From an uncultured Neomegalonema sp. (lineage in GTDB: Bacteria; Pseudomonadota; Alphaproteobacteria; Rhodobacterales; Rhodobacteraceae): a stretch of 64,000 nt of DNA. Of this stretch, positions 3,553 to 59,128 are shown piece after piece. Under the pieces are notes generated by a model. That model was not told the origin of the DNA and searched no databases. It saw only the letters and a list, made by a program, of their open reading frames with translations. Position 1 is the first letter of the stretch, and every line of letters starts with the position of its first letter. Position numbers and translations under genes: made by a program. Where the stretch lies: contig CALLLP010000011.1 in assembly GCA_938008165.1 (NCBI GenBank), forward strand, positions 57,044 to 121,043, given 5' to 3'.

Positions 3553-4107
3553 ATGCTTCGCGTAATCGCCTTCGTGGCAACACTTGCGACCACCGGAATC
3601 ATGGCCGGGGCCGCCAGCGCACATCCCCCGGATCTGCACGGATCGACCTACGGAACGTCGATCTATGGCGGTGGGCACACGACGTCCTATGTCGCGCCGA
3701 GCTATACGGGCGCAAGCTATGGCGCATCGTCTTATGTCGCCCCTAGCTATACGGGTGCCAGCTTTGGCAGCACGAGCTATGTATCGGCACCCACGTATAA
3801 CGCTACACCGCTATATTCCACGACTTACAGCACGCCATCCTACACGCCCCCGCGCCGTCACAGCTATTCGGGCTATCGCGCGCCCAGCTATGGCTATCGC
3901 CACCGCAATACCGGCAGTTATCGTGGATATTACCGCAACCCGTATCACAATCGCCCAGTCAACAATTTCGTCCGTCAGAGCTTCGGTCCCTATTCCCGGA
4001 TCCCGACGACGGAGGGCGTAAATGTCGGATATGCCGGTGGTCCGACCTTTGGCAGTGACGATATGCCCGTGATCAACGGTGTGCGTCTCAACGGCGCGCC
4101 GAACTGA
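3553..4107 (+). CDS. Secreted Tyr/Ser-rich repeat protein
   Basis: Signal peptide MLRVIAFVATLATTGIMAGAASA; RBS aggagactgag; SYVAPSYTGASYGAS tandem repeats. Confidence 0.75.
   Translation: MLRVIAFVATLATTGIMAGAASAHPPDLHGSTYGTSIYGGGHTTSYVAPSYTGASYGASSYVAPSYTGASFGSTSYVSAPTYNATPLYSTTYSTPSYTPPRRHSYSGYRAPSYGYRHRNTGSYRGYYRNPYHNRPVNNFVRQSFGPYSRIPTTEGVNVGYAGGPTFGSDDMPVINGVRLNGAPN
3685..3774 (+). repeat. 45-bp tandem repeat (2 copies plus partial third) encoding SYVAPSYTGAS(Y/F)G(A/S)(S/T)
   Basis: Repeat starts at 3685, 3730 and 3775 with 45-bp spacing. Confidence 0.85.
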
Positions 4108-51533: not shown

Positions 51534-51926
51534 TCAGTGATAACGGCGAAAGTTCTTGCGATAACCCCGGTGACCGCGATGCCCGCGATAGCCTTTATAT
51601 CCACGATACCCGCGATAGCCCTTGTAGCGCTTAGGACCGTAGTACGATCCGATGGAGAGGTTGATCCTTGGGCCATAATAGGGGCGATAGACCGGCGCAG
51701 GCGCGTAGTAGCGCGGAACGGGGGGCGCATAATAGGTCGGCGCAGGCGCGTAATACCCGTTATTCGCCTTCGCCGTGGAGCCGATGATCGTTCCGAGGAT
51801 CAGGCCCCCGGCGATTCCGGCGACGACGGCCCCGCCATCGGCTTTTGCAGGTTTGGCGTGCATGGACCCGGCGCCAAGCGCGAGAACGATAGCGACAGCC
51901 CGAATGGCTTTTCCGAAGAGTGTCAT
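51534..51926 (-). CDS. Secreted Tyr/Arg/Gly repeat protein with glycine-zipper-like segment
   Basis: Signal peptide; GGAVVAGIAGGLILGTIIGSTA; C-terminal YKGYRGYRGYKGYRGHRGHRGYRKNFRRYH. Confidence 0.75.
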   Translation of the reverse strand: MTLFGKAIRAVAIVLALGAGSMHAKPAKADGGAVVAGIAGGLILGTIIGSTAKANNGYYAPAPTYYAPPVPRYYAPAPVYRPYYGPRINLSIGSYYGPKRYKGYRGYRGYKGYRGHRGHRGYRKNFRRYH

Positions 51927-52021
51927 TGTGTGTGTCCTTTGTTGGGTTTTGCCAACCAACCCTTTGTGTCGATATAGATCAACTTATCGTGCAGGGTAGG
52001 TGAAAAGCATCAAATGTAGAT

Positions 52022-52062: not shown

Positions 52063-52809
52063 TCAGTAAGCGTAGGGCACCCGATACCCGATACCGTTTC
52101 CGGCGACGCGGTTGTTATTCGCCAGACGAAAGATGCGACGACTGTTATCGTTGAGCATCCGCATCAGCGCAGCTTCTTCGTGACGCCCGACAAAGCCGTC
52201 ATTGTCGCGATAGGCGCGGAAGGTGCGGCGAATTTCGCGCAGACCTTCACGCAGGCGGCGTTCCTCGCCCCGGCGCAGTTCGCCCCGATCCAGCGCCCGC
52301 TCGATGCGGTTGCGCTGATTGCGGATGCGATCTCGTACCAAGCCGGTCGCATCGTATTGCGGCGGCGCATAGGCGGGCACGGTATAGCGTGGCGCGGGAG
52401 CGTAGGTCGTGGTCGCCGGGGGCGTATAGACCGTGGTGGGCGCGACATAGGTATTGGTCGCGGCGGGCACGGTGCTGTAACTCGGCGGCGTATAGGTCGT
52501 GGTCGGAGCCGTATACGTCGAAGCCGGGGCTGGGGCCGTATAGGTCGTGGCCGGTGCCGTATAGGGCGTTGTGTAGGTCGTGCCGTAGGTGCTTGGCTGC
52601 ACATAAGTGCTGGTGCCTGCGGACTGGATCGGGCCGACAGAGCCGACAACGTTGGCGCCGGGGGCGCTATAGGTCGTGGTGGTGGTCGTGCTCTGGCTCG
52701 TGGCGGTGGGATACGTGTAATACGATCCGTTCTGCCAGAAGCCATTGGCCGACGCGCTGGTTGCAGTAAGGGCGAAGGCGGCACATGCCACGAGGCCAAG
52801 TTTCTTCAT
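52063..52809 (-). CDS. Secreted Thr/Tyr/Pro-rich protein with helical C-terminal domain
   Basis: Signal peptide MKKLGLVACAAFALTATSASA; (T)TYTAPAP/TYTPP repeats; C-terminal RIERALDRGELRRGEERRLREGLREIRRTFRAYRDNDGF. Confidence 0.8.
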   Translation of the reverse strand: MKKLGLVACAAFALTATSASANGFWQNGSYYTYPTATSQSTTTTTTYSAPGANVVGSVGPIQSAGTSTYVQPSTYGTTYTTPYTAPATTYTAPAPASTYTAPTTTYTPPSYSTVPAATNTYVAPTTVYTPPATTTYAPAPRYTVPAYAPPQYDATGLVRDRIRNQRNRIERALDRGELRRGEERRLREGLREIRRTFRAYRDNDGFVGRHEEAALMRMLNDNSRRIFRLANNNRVAGNGIGYRVPYAY

Positions 52810-53119: not shown

Positions 53120-54712
53120 TTAGTAGGTGCTCAGACCGCCGCCGAAGCCGCCGAGACCCCCGAAGCCAAAGCCGAGGCTCTGCTGTAGGACGGGGAACTG
53201 CGCGCCGGGCAGATAGGCCCCTGCCGCGCCGAAATTGGGGCGGAAGTGAGCAGGGGCGATGCCTTGATGGCCGTAACCCTGAGCATATTGTTTCGCGAAG
53301 TCTGCGTTCTGCTTCGCGATCCGCTCGGCGATTTCCTCGTTCTGTTTCGCGATTTTCATCTGCGAAGCAAGCTGACGAACGCTGGCTGCGACGACTTCGA
53401 TTTCTTTTTCCTCGAAGCGGCCATCCTTGCGGGCCGAGGTCAGTTCGTTCGAAACACCCTGGATCTTCTTGCGAAGATTGGCGGCTTCGACGGCGGAAAT
53501 CACGCCGCTATTCTCGCCATCCGCAATGCGGGCGGAGATTTTCGAGATGCGCTCGGAGATATGCTTGAAGGCACCGTCCGAGTGAGTGCCGTAATGCTGA
53601 CCGCCGACATGGCCATTGCAGCAATCGCCAAAGCTCAGACCGCCGAGACCTTCATATCCGTTGAGGCCGTGGCCGCCGCCGAAATACTCATAGCCGCCGC
53701 TGACGACTGGCGTGGTGGTGAAGGAGGCGGGTGCCGCAAGGGCTGCGCCGTGGTGGCCGTAGCCATGGCCCGAAAAGCCACCGCAGCCGCCTTGATAGGT
53801 CTGAGCGACCGTGACATGCGCGGAAGGCAGGGCACATCCGTTATAGCCGGTGGTCGCCGCGACAACGGGCGTCTGAACCGGACGGTTGATGTACACCGGA
53901 CGATCGACGGGCACCGGACGATCCACAGGCACGGCAACGCGCTTCTGGATATAGACGGGACGATCGACGGGAACGGGCACATGCTTGACCACAGGCACGG
54001 CGACGCGCTTCTGGATGTAGACCGGGCGGTCAACTGGAACCGCGACATGCTTGACGACGGGAACCTCTACACGCTTTTGGATGTAGACCGGACGATCGAC
54101 AGGCACCGCGACAGGCTTGGGCACGGCCACGGGGCGCGGCACATAGACAGGGCGGTCGATATAGATCGGACGGTTCACGATGACCTTGCGCTCGATCGGG
54201 CGGTCGACGAAGACTTTCTTTTCGACGATCCGATCCCGGTAAACCGGCTTTTCGATGAACTGCGGTGCCTGATAGGCAGGCTGCTGGTAAATCGGGGCCT
54301 GGAAGACGGGGGGCACATAGGTCTGAACCGGCGTGCGATGCGGGTGCGGATGGGGCGCAACGCCGCCGCCGCAGGGCGTGGCCGCATAGGTCGCGCAAGA
54401 CGATGTCGTCGCATGTGCGATCGGCTTCTCGGCATAGGTCTTTTCCGGGGTCGCCAGCGGTGTGGTCTGTGTGGCGATCGGGGGCAGGTATTCGTATTCC
54501 GGAGCCTGCGTCACGGTGCTGGTATCGGTGCTGCCCAGATTATCCCAAACCGGCTGCGATGCCGTGGGTGCGCTTTGCACGATGGGAGGGGTCTGCCAGA
54601 CATTCGTTGCATAGTCGCCGGGGCCGGACGCGAAGGCAGTGCCGGTCATCCCGAAACCCGCCATCCCGGCAACCAGCGCGAGAGGCGACGCCATTTTCGT
54701 AAATTTTTCCAT
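53120..54712 (-). CDS. Secreted Pro/Val repeat protein, 530 aa
   Basis: Signal peptide; repeats PVDRPVYIQKRVxVPVVKHVxV; Gly-rich Cys-containing region; helical C-terminal domain. Confidence 0.82.
   Translation of the reverse strand: MEKFTKMASPLALVAGMAGFGMTGTAFASGPGDYATNVWQTPPIVQSAPTASQPVWDNLGSTDTSTVTQAPEYEYLPPIATQTTPLATPEKTYAEKPIAHATTSSCATYAATPCGGGVAPHPHPHRTPVQTYVPPVFQAPIYQQPAYQAPQFIEKPVYRDRIVEKKVFVDRPIERKVIVNRPIYIDRPVYVPRPVAVPKPVAVPVDRPVYIQKRVEVPVVKHVAVPVDRPVYIQKRVAVPVVKHVPVPVDRPVYIQKRVAVPVDRPVPVDRPVYINRPVQTPVVAATTGYNGCALPSAHVTVAQTYQGGCGGFSGHGYGHHGAALAAPASFTTTPVVSGGYEYFGGGHGLNGYEGLGGLSFGDCCNGHVGGQHYGTHSDGAFKHISERISKISARIADGENSGVISAVEAANLRKKIQGVSNELTSARKDGRFEEKEIEVVAASVRQLASQMKIAKQNEEIAERIAKQNADFAKQYAQGYGHQGIAPAHFRPNFGAAGAYLPGAQFPVLQQSLGFGFGGLGGFGGGLSTY
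53880..54145 (-). repeat. 66-bp tandem repeats encoding 22-aa PVDRPVYIQKRV(A/E)VPVVKHV(A/P)V units
   Basis: Three PVDRPVYIQKRV copies plus a degenerate PVDRPVYINRPV copy; first two intervals are 22 aa. Confidence 0.85.
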
Positions 54713-55042: not shown

Positions 55043-57934
55043 ATGGCCGAGACCCCCGAATACCGGGACACGCTGTTCCTGCCGAAGACCGAGTTCCCCA
55101 TGCGGGCGGGCCTGCCTAAACGCGAACCGGAATGGATCGCGCATTGGGACCGGATCGGCCTGTACGAAGCCCAGCGCAAGGCGGCGGCGGGGCGCGAGCC
55201 GTTCGAATTGCATGACGGCCCGCCTTATGCGAATGGTAATCTGCATATTGGTCATGCTCTCAATAAGATACTGAAAGATGTTGTTGTACGATCTCATCAA
55301 ATGATGGGCTATGACAGCCGCTATGTGCCCGGATGGGATTGTCACGGCCTGCCCATCGAATGGAAGGTCGAGGAAAAATATCGCAAGAAGGGCAAGAACA
55401 AGGACGAGGTGCCGGTCAACCAGCTTCGCAAGGAATGCCGCGAATTCGCCGGTGAGTGGATCGGCACGCAGATGGAAGAATTCCAGCGCCTCGGTGTCAT
55501 CGGCGATTGGCCCGGCCATTACGAAACCATGAGCTTCTCTGCCGAAGCCGTTATCGCCGAAGAGTTTTTGAGGATGGTCGATAACGGGTTGGTCTATCGC
55601 GGGTCCAAACCCGTGATGTGGTCCCCCATCGAGAAGACCGCGCTGGCCGAGGCGGAGGTCGAGTATCACGACCACCAGAGTCATATGATCTGGGTCAAGT
55701 TTCCGGTTGTGAAAACAGGCGCGCAAGACCTTGAAAACACTTCTGTCGTGATCTGGACGACGACGCCATGGACGATCCCCCAGAACCGTGCGATCTGTTT
55801 CAGTGAAACGATTTCCTACGGATTGTATCACGTGACCGATGCGGCGCCGGAGAACTGGACCGCCAAGGGCGATATGATGATGGTCGCCGACAACCTCGCC
55901 GCCGATGTGTTCAGGGCGGCGCGGGTCGATGCCTATGAAAAGGTGCGGTCGGTCAGTGCGGAGGAACTCGCGGATCTTGTCACCGCCCATCCCTTCCGGG
56001 CTGCTGAAGATGCGAACGGCGAATGGGACTACGACGTTCCCCTCCTGCCCGGCGATCATGTGACCGACGAGGCGGGCACGGGCTTTGTGCATACCGCCCC
56101 CTCGCATGGGGCGGATGACTACATGATCGGGGTCAAATACAAGCTGCCGATGACCCATAATGTCGGCCCGGCGGGGGAGTTTCGCGATGACCTGCCGTTT
56201 TTCGGCGGTCTGCACATCCTCGACCGCAAGGGGAAAGAGGGCAAGGCCAATGATGCGGTCATCCGTAAGCTGGCAGAGGTCGGACGGCTCGCGGCGCGGG
56301 GCAAGCTGAAGCACAGCTATCCGCATAGCTGGCGCTCCAAGGCCCCGCTGATCTTCCGCAACACGCCGCAATGGTTCGCGGCGATGGACAAGAAAATCGA
56401 AGACGATACGGAATATTCAGGCAAAACCCTGCGCGAGCGGGCGACCGAAAGCATCGACCGCGATGTCCGCTGGGTGCCCCGCGCCGGGCGCAATCGCCTC
56501 TATAACATGATCGAAAACCGCCCTGACTGGGTGCTCTCGCGCCAACGTGTCTGGGGGGTGCCGCTGTGCATCTTTGTCCAAGATGCGCCTGACCTTGGGC
56601 CGGGGCAGGTCAGATACCTGCGCGACCCGCAGGTCGATGCCCGCATCCTCGCCGCGTTCCGGGAGGAGGGGGCCGATGCGTGGTTTGAGGAGGATGCTGC
56701 CGCGCGCTTTCTCGCTGGCCGCGATGATGCCGCCGAGTGGACCAAGGTAACGGATATTCTGGACGTGTGGTTCGATTCGGGCTGCACCCATGCCTATGTG
56801 CTGCGCGTTGGGGGCGGCAGGTGGCCCGCATCCGTCTATCTGGAAGGCACGGACCAGCATCGCGGGTGGTTCCATTCCTCGTTGCTGGAATCGAGCGCCA
56901 CGACGGGCCGCGCGCCCTATGAGACGGTCGTGACCCACGGCTTTACCCTCGACCAGAACGGCATCAAGATGTCAAAATCCTTGGGCAACCAGACCGCCCC
57001 GCAGGAGGTCATCAAGCAATATGGCGCCGATATCCTGCGCCTGTGGGTGATGCAGGTCGATTATACCGAAGACCAGCGCATCGGGCCGGATATCCTGAAA
57101 TCCGTTGCCGACAGCTATCGGCGGCTGCGCAACACGTTCCGTTTTCTGCTTGGGGCGCTTGATGGGTTTTCGGATGCCGAGCGGATGCCGGTCGCGGAGA
57201 TGCCGGAGCTGGAGCGCCTGATCCTGCACCGCCTTGCCGAGTTGGACGGTGTGGTGCGACAGGGCTATCGTGATTTCGAATATCAGAAGACGTTCCAGAC
57301 GCTGTTCCAGTTCGCGACCGTCGATCTCAGCGCCTTCTATTTCGATATTCGCAAGGATGCGCTCTATTGCGATGCGCCGGACAGCGCGCGTCGCCGGGCC
57401 TGTCGTACCGTGCTTGATCTCTTGTTCGAGCGCCTGACGATCTGGCTCGCGCCGATGCTGTGCTTCACGATGGAGGAGGTGTGGCTGACCCGCTTTGGTC
57501 AGGGGGATGCATCGGTGCATCTGAACACCATTCCCGACACTCCCGGCGATTGGCAGGACGATGCGCTGGCGGAGAAGTGGCAGGAGATCCGAAACCTGCG
57601 CCGGGTCGTGACCGGCGCGCTCGAAGAACGCCGCCGGGATAAAACCATCGGCGCCTCGCTGGAGGCCGCTCCGGTCGTTCATGTTGCCGATGAGGCAAAG
57701 GCGGAGGTGGCGCGGTCGGTTGCCTTCGCGGATGTGTGCATAACTTCGGGAATCAGTATCGAGACGGGCGCGGGCGCGGCGGATGCCTTCCGTCTGGACG
57801 ATGTGCCCGGCGTGGCGGTGGCCTTCGCGATGGCGGAGGGCGAAAAATGCGCCCGGTGCTGGAAAATCCTGCCCGATGTCGGCCAGCATGCCGCGCCGCA
57901 AACCTGTGCGCGGTGCTCCGGCGTTGTCGCGTAA
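55043..57934 (+). CDS. ileS: Isoleucyl-tRNA synthetase
   Basis: HDGPPYANGNLHIGHALNKILKDVVVRSHQMMGYDSRYVPGWDCHGLPIEWKVE; NGIKMSKSLGN; C-terminal CARCWKILPD...CARCSGVVA. Confidence 0.97.
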   Translation: MAETPEYRDTLFLPKTEFPMRAGLPKREPEWIAHWDRIGLYEAQRKAAAGREPFELHDGPPYANGNLHIGHALNKILKDVVVRSHQMMGYDSRYVPGWDCHGLPIEWKVEEKYRKKGKNKDEVPVNQLRKECREFAGEWIGTQMEEFQRLGVIGDWPGHYETMSFSAEAVIAEEFLRMVDNGLVYRGSKPVMWSPIEKTALAEAEVEYHDHQSHMIWVKFPVVKTGAQDLENTSVVIWTTTPWTIPQNRAICFSETISYGLYHVTDAAPENWTAKGDMMMVADNLAADVFRAARVDAYEKVRSVSAEELADLVTAHPFRAAEDANGEWDYDVPLLPGDHVTDEAGTGFVHTAPSHGADDYMIGVKYKLPMTHNVGPAGEFRDDLPFFGGLHILDRKGKEGKANDAVIRKLAEVGRLAARGKLKHSYPHSWRSKAPLIFRNTPQWFAAMDKKIEDDTEYSGKTLRERATESIDRDVRWVPRAGRNRLYNMIENRPDWVLSRQRVWGVPLCIFVQDAPDLGPGQVRYLRDPQVDARILAAFREEGADAWFEEDAAARFLAGRDDAAEWTKVTDILDVWFDSGCTHAYVLRVGGGRWPASVYLEGTDQHRGWFHSSLLESSATTGRAPYETVVTHGFTLDQNGIKMSKSLGNQTAPQEVIKQYGADILRLWVMQVDYTEDQRIGPDILKSVADSYRRLRNTFRFLLGALDGFSDAERMPVAEMPELERLILHRLAELDGVVRQGYRDFEYQKTFQTLFQFATVDLSAFYFDIRKDALYCDAPDSARRRACRTVLDLLFERLTIWLAPMLCFTMEEVWLTRFGQGDASVHLNTIPDTPGDWQDDALAEKWQEIRNLRRVVTGALEERRRDKTIGASLEAAPVVHVADEAKAEVARSVAFADVCITSGISIETGAGAADAFRLDDVPGVAVAFAMAEGEKCARCWKILPDVGQHAAPQTCARCSGVVA

Positions 57935-58150
57935 CGGGGGTGATCCTCCACGGATGCGCCGATTCGGGTCGGCGCATTGGCGCACAATGCACGAGATAGC
58001 ACTTTTCCGCGAGTATGGGCCATAATGGCACATCTGCAACGGGCAATCGCGCGAAACTGCGAATATACCTTCCCAAATCGGGGCATACTATGCCATGATG
58101 GGCGAGAGTGACGTCCCATTTCGCGTCACGCCAGCGTAGAGGTATAGACG

Positions 58151-59062
58151 ATGAAACGATCAGGGCTTCTCAGCGCACTCGCAATCGTGATCAGCGGTGG
58201 ATACGCTGTTCCGGCAATCGCGGGTGGATGTAATATGCCGGTCTATATGACCTGCGGAACCACAACACACCATGTCCCCGCCACGACGACGACGCAGCAG
58301 GTCGCGCGCACGGTCTATGAAAATGTGCCGGTCACGACCACCAAACAAGTCGCGCGGACCGTCACCGAGCAGGTGCCCGTGACCAAAACCGAGCAGGTCG
58401 CTCGCGTCGTCAGCAAGCAGGTGCCATACAGCTATACCGATCAGGTGTCGCGCACGGTCGAGCGCACGGTCGAGGAAACGGTGATCGATACGGTCGAGGA
58501 AGAATATTTCGAGACGGTGCCTGTGACCACCTACAAACAGGTCCGAAAGACCCGCATGAAGCAGGTGCCGCGCTTGGTCACGAAAGTCGTGCCCGAAACC
58601 GTCGTCGAAAATGTCGAGCGCACGGGATTCAAGACGGTCGACGAAACCGTCTATGACACCGTGAATAAGACGGTCTACGAAACCCGCCAGAAAACGGTCT
58701 ACGAAAACGTGCCGACGACGACCTATAAGCGCGTTCCGAAAACTGTCTTCGAGACCGTTTCGGTGCCCGCGCCTGCACCTGTTCGGGCCAGCACGGTGAC
58801 GATCAATGTCATCGCTGCCCCGGCTCCGGCTCCGACGATCATTCAGCAGCCTGCACCGATCGTGCAACAGCCGTTGCTCGTGCCGACCTTTGGCGGCGGC
58901 TTCTTCGGTGGCGGTTTTGTCAGCGGTGGGCGCAGTGTCAACCAGACGGTGATCATCAACCGTGGCCGGGGGATGATGCGTGGCAACCGGGGCATGCGCC
59001 GGATGCGCGGTGGTGGTATGATGCGGATGCGCGGTGGTGGCGGCGGTGCCGCAGTGGATTGA
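58151..59062 (+). CDS. Secreted protein with ten 16-aa Val/Thr repeats and Arg/Gly/Met-rich tail
   Basis: Signal peptide MKRSGLLSALAIVISGGYAVPAIA; QVARTVYENVPVTTTK-type repeats; C-terminal RGRGMMRGNRGMRRMRGGGMMRMRGGGGG. Confidence 0.85.
   Translation: MKRSGLLSALAIVISGGYAVPAIAGGCNMPVYMTCGTTTHHVPATTTTQQVARTVYENVPVTTTKQVARTVTEQVPVTKTEQVARVVSKQVPYSYTDQVSRTVERTVEETVIDTVEEEYFETVPVTTYKQVRKTRMKQVPRLVTKVVPETVVENVERTGFKTVDETVYDTVNKTVYETRQKTVYENVPTTTYKRVPKTVFETVSVPAPAPVRASTVTINVIAAPAPAPTIIQQPAPIVQQPLLVPTFGGGFFGGGFVSGGRSVNQTVIINRGRGMMRGNRGMRRMRGGGMMRMRGGGGGAAVD
58298..58777 (+). repeat. Ten consecutive 48-bp (16-aa) degenerate repeats
   Basis: QVARTVYENVPVTTTK / QVARTVTEQVPVTKTE / QVARVVSKQVPYSYTD / QVSRTVERTVEETVID / TVEEEYFETVPVTTYK / QVRKTRMKQVPRLVTK / VVPETVVENVERTGFK / TVDETVYDTVNKTVYE / TRQKTVYENVPTTTYK / RVPKTVFETVSVPAPA. 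Confidence 0.9.
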
Positions 59063-59097
59063 TCCACCTCCCCGACGATCCGATCCTTCGATTCTCG

Positions 59098-59128
59098 CCC
59101 CGGCAAGCATACGCTTGCCGGGGTTTTT
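59098..59128 (+). terminator. Rho-independent terminator after the 16-aa repeat gene
   Basis: CCCCGGCAAGC-atac-GCTTGCCGGGG-TTTTT. Confidence 0.92.

Follow-up and report, generated by a model that had tools for sequence, protein, structure and literature searches.

We know of no folding rule for valine- and charge-rich repeat proteins such as alveolins, articulins and charged-repeat proteins, which are usually described by their composition. The 64,000-nucleotide stretch of an uncultured Neomegalonema genome analysed here (the window) encodes an exported protein, P0001, that brings this problem into a single small reading frame, and we asked how its ten tandem repeats fold and what the protein is likely to do.

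The gene, its termini and its distribution

The open reading frame originally proposed on the forward strand, together with its Sec-type signal and the strong terminator behind it, was recovered in full. The features of the gene and of the regions outside the repeats are as follows.

58070-58095, +, upstream element TTCCCAnAnnGnnnCAnAnTrTGCCA, kept upstream of orthologs
58138-58142, +, Shine-Dalgarno sequence AGAGG, its GAGG invariant in seven orthologs
58151-59062, +, coding sequence of the 303 aa exported repeat protein P0001, with orthologs in 11 of 14 Neomegalonema genomes
58151-58222, +, Sec signal peptide (residues 1-24, AIA/GG), read from the sequence, with an AxA-type site in orthologs
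58229-58255, +, mature N-terminus with the Cys pair C27-x7-C35, C27 and C35 being invariant in 11 of 11 orthologs
58784-58966, +, C-terminal module TxxINVxxxPxP...QQPAP...PxFGGGFFGGG...NQTVIIN (residues 212-272), common to a PEP-CTERM protein of the genus
58967-59059, +, basic Gly/Met/Arg tail, composition not conserved
59097-59124, +, intrinsic terminator, 12 bp stem with 9 GC and a T-run

Conservation of the start and of the GAGG, along with strong purifying selection on the repeats and arms (dN/dS of about 0.03-0.13), indicates that P0001 is a real gene. It is preceded by ileS (55043-57934, +) and followed, in convergent orientation, by a gene for an alanine-dehydrogenase-type protein, by purN and by purM, and the whole order is the same in the four related contigs examined (L022-L025). 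The upstream element, which is not sigma-70-like and occurs once in the window against 0.03 occurrences expected by chance, is a candidate promoter or regulatory site; its single occurrence gave no support to co-regulation of P0001 with the neighbouring gene.

In most orthologs the AxA-type cleavage site is followed by a Cys within three residues, and the lack of a lipobox consistent across the orthologs led us to reject P0001 as a lipoprotein. The Pro/Ala linker and Arg/Gly/Met tail noted earlier are both present, the tail being far more variable than the arms and His/Lys-rich, Pro/His-rich or Gly/Met-rich in orthologs. The C-terminal Pro-rich/GGGFFGGG module matches an exported protein of 580-800 aa that most genomes of the genus encode, the window's own among them, with E-values down to 4e-9 versus at least 1.8 for 300 shuffles. 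Both of the module-sharing proteins that were scanned end in a PEP-CTERM signal over the cut-off, and the window's genome encodes the exosortase EpsH (G000:C4:147654-148358). P0001 itself does not look like an exosortase substrate, as inspection of its C-terminus (GGGGGAAVD) found no VPEP-TM-basic signal and NCBIfam PEP_CTERM gave no match. Large exported proteins carrying the module occur at G000:C15 (L002), L006, L016, L017, L019 and L020; their repeats are Asn/Ser-rich or of the DNR type, and those with a complete frame end in a PEP-CTERM signal.

Among the genomes searched, P0001 is confined to Neomegalonema, a close-relative scan of 85,462 species returned this genus alone, and the relatives that carry a name are uncultured Neomegalonema MAGs, their contigs coinciding with genomes of the genus. 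Overlapping samples of 199 family, 387 class, 395 order and 399 phylum genomes yielded no ortholog, in searches whose first step may overlook strongly diverged low-complexity relatives. Within the genus, an ortholog was not found in one relative that is 94% complete (G204), suggesting that P0001 may not be essential across the genus. Pfam, NCBIfam, PHROGs and PDB-sequence searches gave chance-level matches only; a PDB profile match to a chloroplast ribosomal protein (E 0.004) was set aside, since it spans the low-complexity C-terminus only, and plasmid matches in Halobaculum and Burkholderia were rejected as compositional (ETVEEKV and DVPEEVP runs). Neomegalonema (Meganema) is filamentous and known from activated sludge (PMC4511698), and it has been placed as sister of Rhodobacteraceae (PMC7179689).

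Repeat periodicity and the mirror register of charges

The repeat region and the parts of the predicted hairpin occupy the following positions.

58298-58777, +, ten 16-residue units (residues 50-209) made of tetrads and octads, from the sequence and its autocorrelation
58289-58525, +, predicted hairpin N-arm (residues 47-125), from AlphaFold2 strand 47-123 and the charge zipper
58511-58534, +, hinge ETVPVTTY (residues 121-128), the best-conserved octad of the repeat region (0.94)
58535-58771, +, predicted hairpin C-arm (residues 129-207), from AlphaFold2 strand 129-205 and the charge zipper

As first described, the ten units run in exact register with no insertion or deletion. Identity autocorrelation gives z = 10.6 at lag 16, 9.9 at lag 8 and 5.0 at lag 4, a repeat signal far above chance with nested periods of 4, 8 and 16. 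Valine, which had been said to recur at alternating positions, in fact falls on every fourth residue, and identity at lag 2 is lower than chance would give (z = -1.9). When the orthologs are pooled, the tetrad classes are 74% Val (class 3), 81% charged (E/K/R/D), 77% Thr/Gln and one variable; odd positions of the P0001 repeats hold Val and charges and even positions Thr/Gln with Pro/Tyr, and the arms are 23% V, 1% I and 3% A+G. An ice-binding TxT reading was rejected, as the Thr period is 4 residues and not 2. Nor is the 16-residue unit the evolutionary quantum, because one ortholog (L012) gained 8-residue units, and orthologs vary by octads rather than 16-mers (two additional octads in L012).

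Pairing each residue i with residue 254-i about the hinge, a test that uses no structural model, brings out a mirror symmetry of charge. At i+j=254, P0001 has 14 opposite-sign charged pairs and 0 like-sign pairs (R53-E201, E57-K197, R69-E185, E73-K181, E81-K173, R85-D169, K89-E165, D97-R157, R101-E153, R105-E149, E109-K145, D113-R141, E117-K137 and E121-K133). The same sum is also the top register for Val-Val pairs, and the remaining same-parity registers give 4-9 opposite and 5-9 like pairs. In all 10 of the 10 orthologs with charged arms the hinge register ranks first of about 300 antiparallel centres, with a net score of 11-15 versus 4-7 for the runner-up. Permuting the charges gives P=0.0006 over registers, with 0 of 20000 permutations at 254 itself, and permuting them within repeat phase gives P=0.0003; reordering intact 16-, 8- or 4-residue units reached 14 opposite pairs in 0 of 2000 trials each. 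Because the signs of the zipper charges are kept among orthologs and never swapped, the support comes from conservation and register, not from sign covariation.

Changes in arm length appear to follow the same symmetry. Each arm of L012 has one octad more, and the two lie at mirror distances of 54-69 and 53-66 residues from the hinge; the L012 zipper counts 16 opposite to 1 like, and in silico removal of either octad leaves 12:4 or 12:3. In L015, the most divergent ortholog, both arms have become shorter and have shed their charges, and the hinge TVPVTTY is kept. This evidence is supportive and the sample small, comprising one paired insertion (L012) and one joint loss (L015).

The predicted hairpin and competing arrangements

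The AlphaFold model that had been suggested as a check, built here with AlphaFold2 from 11 orthologs, contains two straight, unbroken 77-residue strands, one in each arm and mostly at pLDDT 80-92, and not disorder devoid of repeat structure. The N- and C-terminal regions have low pLDDT and are disordered, and the pTM of the whole is 0.24. The strand ends imply a register sum of about 252, two residues short of the 254 at which the zipper is best, so the two charges of a pair may lie diagonally across the strands instead of straight opposite each other. The neighbouring VPV-repeat protein (53120-54712), modelled with ten orthologs as a control, showed no strands in its repeats; the method therefore does not turn every Val-rich repeat into a hairpin. 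Turn-like VPxT motifs are found at other places in the P0001 repeats besides the hinge. Searching the PDB with the predicted fold returned, at TM ~0.1, long hairpins from barrel pores, from phage tail and collar proteins and from the flagellar ring, and pore formation was rejected since the ribbon has no uniformly hydrophobic face.

Between the structure model and the charge register, the case for the repeats folding as a mirror-arm hairpin is strong for a computation. We consider it fairly probable that P0001 is exported by Sec and is a structural envelope protein peculiar to the genus, with repeats that fold at ETVPVTTY into a giant two-stranded antiparallel beta-ribbon. Computation gives the export signal, the repeat periodicity, the complementary charges of the mirror register, the predicted strands, the restriction to the genus, the purifying selection and the shared module. 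The structural envelope role is one we assign with moderate confidence; P0001 would probably be a structural part of a type not seen in the other bacteria searched. Each arm of about 79 residues would span about 26 nm at 0.33 nm per residue, with every tetrad supplying one Val, one charged residue, one Thr/Gln and one variable residue. In the mirror register Val would lie opposite Val, any charge opposite a charge would have the opposite sign, and this charge zipper would set the register of the hairpin. Units of one repeat family would diverge in charge because each matches its mirror unit and not its neighbour.

For the exact location, anchoring, lateral assembly and role in the filament envelope, we infer an arrangement from the geometry of the hairpin. 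Since such a fold puts both chain ends at one base, the base would be anchored and the hinge would form a distal tip about 26 nm away. The N-terminal Cys pair, Pro/Ala linker, GGGFFGGG module and basic tail would make up the base, which may anchor or cross-link P0001 at the envelope through disulfides and the module common to the exosortase-sorted PEP-CTERM protein, and the ribbon might serve as a bristle or stack sideways with others as the subunit of a sheet. A wider proposal, which we put forward tentatively and regard as doubtful, is that a single-chain, charge-zippered beta-hairpin of about 26 nm represents an unrecognised class of bacterial envelope building block, in which the mirror charge code writes the register across the repeat array, paired insertions set arm length, and filamentous cells may be covered by a palisade or sheath of hairpins stacked by that code.

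Under the hairpin reading, the P0001 sequence would itself state a folding rule, namely a mirror-symmetric charge code about a hinge, and would do so in a small, secreted, single-chain protein in which the rule is testable, from a genus that has a cultured member. The bacterium is filamentous and implicated in activated-sludge bulking, and P0001 would be a candidate component of its envelope; the register scan is applicable to other low-complexity repeat proteins, where it could find hidden hairpins.

An isolated 26 nm two-stranded ribbon without partners would nevertheless be unusual, and mirror pairing would also suit an antiparallel two-chain ribbon or a beta-arch. In the two-chain arrangement, two extended molecules pair antiparallel about residue 127, the N-arm of one with the C-arm of the other, producing a ribbon roughly twice as long that could polymerise. 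Intra- and intermolecular pairing share the same mirror charge register, and PfIMC1g with PfIMC1c has been modelled as a two-chain beta-ribbon (PMC12465100). We judge this arrangement rather unlikely, however, as AlphaFold2 already predicts the strands in a single chain, interrupted precisely at the hinge, and no other octad of the repeats is as well conserved as that of the hinge, which persists in the most divergent ortholog.

Also unlikely, in our estimation, is an amyloid-like sheath subunit made of beta-arches, with arms facing through their side chains (Val-Val contacts and salt bridges inside, Thr/Gln outside) and stacking round the filament like the Methanospirillum sheath protein. The AlphaFold2 arms are paired strands and not an arch, in-register stacking would pile up like charges, and a sheath was not found described in the genus paper (PMC4511698), which does record the filamentous habit that such a subunit would fit. 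The separation of Val and charges at odd positions from Thr/Gln and Pro/Tyr at even ones means that one face could be an inner interface, and the archaeal sheath protein combines beta-arches with two Cys per monomer and complementary electrostatics (PMC10593813).

It is improbable that P0001 is simply an exported linker, flexible and of low complexity, in which unequal crossover multiplied the repeats and the pattern of charges has no structural meaning. Its Val/Thr/charged low complexity, disordered N- and C-terminal regions and few structural relatives (TM ~0.1) would agree with a linker, but reordering the same units never gives the mirror charge symmetry (0/2000), purifying selection is strong and the octad insertion is paired. 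Least credible of all is a beta-solenoid fibre in which each 16-residue unit forms one coil: the exact periodicity across ten units speaks for it, but charges show no preference at the parallel stacking offsets 16, 32, 48 and 64 (13 opposite and 16 like at offset 16), there are no Gly/Asn turn positions, indels are octads rather than 16-mers and the model consists of two straight strands, so that of the amphipathic "fibre or solenoid" in the original prediction the extended beta structure stands, by AlphaFold2, and the solenoid does not.

Known systems and neighbouring repeat proteins

The likeness to articulins, alveolins and planctomycete VPV repeats that had been remarked on by eye does not extend to membership of any of these families. 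As a hairpin, P0001 would work most like the beta-ribbon modelled for Plasmodium alveolins, which have been predicted as twisted two-stranded ribbons (PfIMC1e; PfIMC1g with PfIMC1c; PMC12465100). Val- and charge-rich repeats and a predicted two-stranded ribbon are common to both, and in PfIMC1e the ribbon lies within one chain (PMC12465100). Alveolins, however, are eukaryotic cytoskeletal proteins, most of which needed a partner for the ribbon (PMC12465100), whereas P0001 is exported, bacterial, self-complementary, Pro-poor and Thr-rich, and Pfam IMCp had no reported match at E<=1 in any of its 11 orthologs.

Caulobacter articulin-like proteins and epiplastins (PMC6212826) are likewise alphaproteobacterial, with Val-rich, low Ala/Gly repeats between a head and a tail, and P0001 resembles them in composition (high Val+Ile, with V at 23% and I at 1%, and A+G at 3%) and in having strands in its model. 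Unlike them, with their medial domain rich in acid-base dyads (such as EK and DR) set apart by short strings, it has 2 such dyads in 161 residues (1.2 per 100) versus 8.6 per 100 in the neighbouring protein at 53120-54712 (P0002), and its arms contain 3 VPV, where articulins have more than three and P0002 has 8; at 1% Ile it also departs from this class, which P0002 fits instead. The Sec signal on P0001 further argues against a cytoplasmic (submembranous epiplast) layer. Planctomycete YTV proteins (PF07639; PMC8567305) are exported too, with repeats containing tyrosine, threonine and valine, but they are Cys-rich and reported in Planctomycetales only (PMC8567305), whereas P0001 has two Cys in 303 residues and the best YTV score across 14 genus genomes was 13 bits against a 21-bit cut-off.

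For a filament-forming cell, the nearest functional analogy, and it is an analogy only, is the Methanospirillum sheath protein (PMC10593813), which is beta-rich, exported, from a filament-forming prokaryote and equipped with two Cys per monomer. Complementary charges, which in the archaeal protein lie between subunits (PMC10593813), we count as shared with P0001; its beta-arches in rings are a difference (PMC10593813), and no sheath is known for Neomegalonema. Designed beta-hairpin peptides of the MAX1 type (PMC12940918) similarly combine Val and charged strands with a V-P-x-T turn and form a hairpin before assembling laterally, but they are about 20 residues long, against arms of about 79 residues each in P0001, and place Val and Lys on opposite faces with no salt-bridge zipper (PMC12940918).

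P0002 (53120-54712, -), an articulin-like protein of the VPV/VYV kind, carries a Sec signal and VPVDRPVYIQKRV repeats, has a conserved helical domain at its C-terminus and resembles the Caulobacter articulin-like proteins; AlphaFold2 leaves its repeats disordered and places helices at 378-476. Proteins of this type occur in 13 of 14 Neomegalonema genomes, in open frames of 457-960 aa with varying repeat number, and adjoin ileS and P0001 in one clade. Two further exported low-complexity proteins, each with a homolog in L024, add to the repeat-protein cluster around ileS: one at 52063-52809 (-) with TTYTAP repeats and a basic helical domain, and one at 51534-51959 (-) with GYKGYRGYRG repeats. 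Elsewhere in the window, 3553-4107 (+) encodes a small exported protein in which SYVAPSYTGASYGAS, 15 residues long, is repeated in tandem. Finally, L021 (G207:C223) encodes a predicted outer-membrane-barrel-like protein that follows YETVPVTTY-type repeats, a motif similar to the P0001 hinge.
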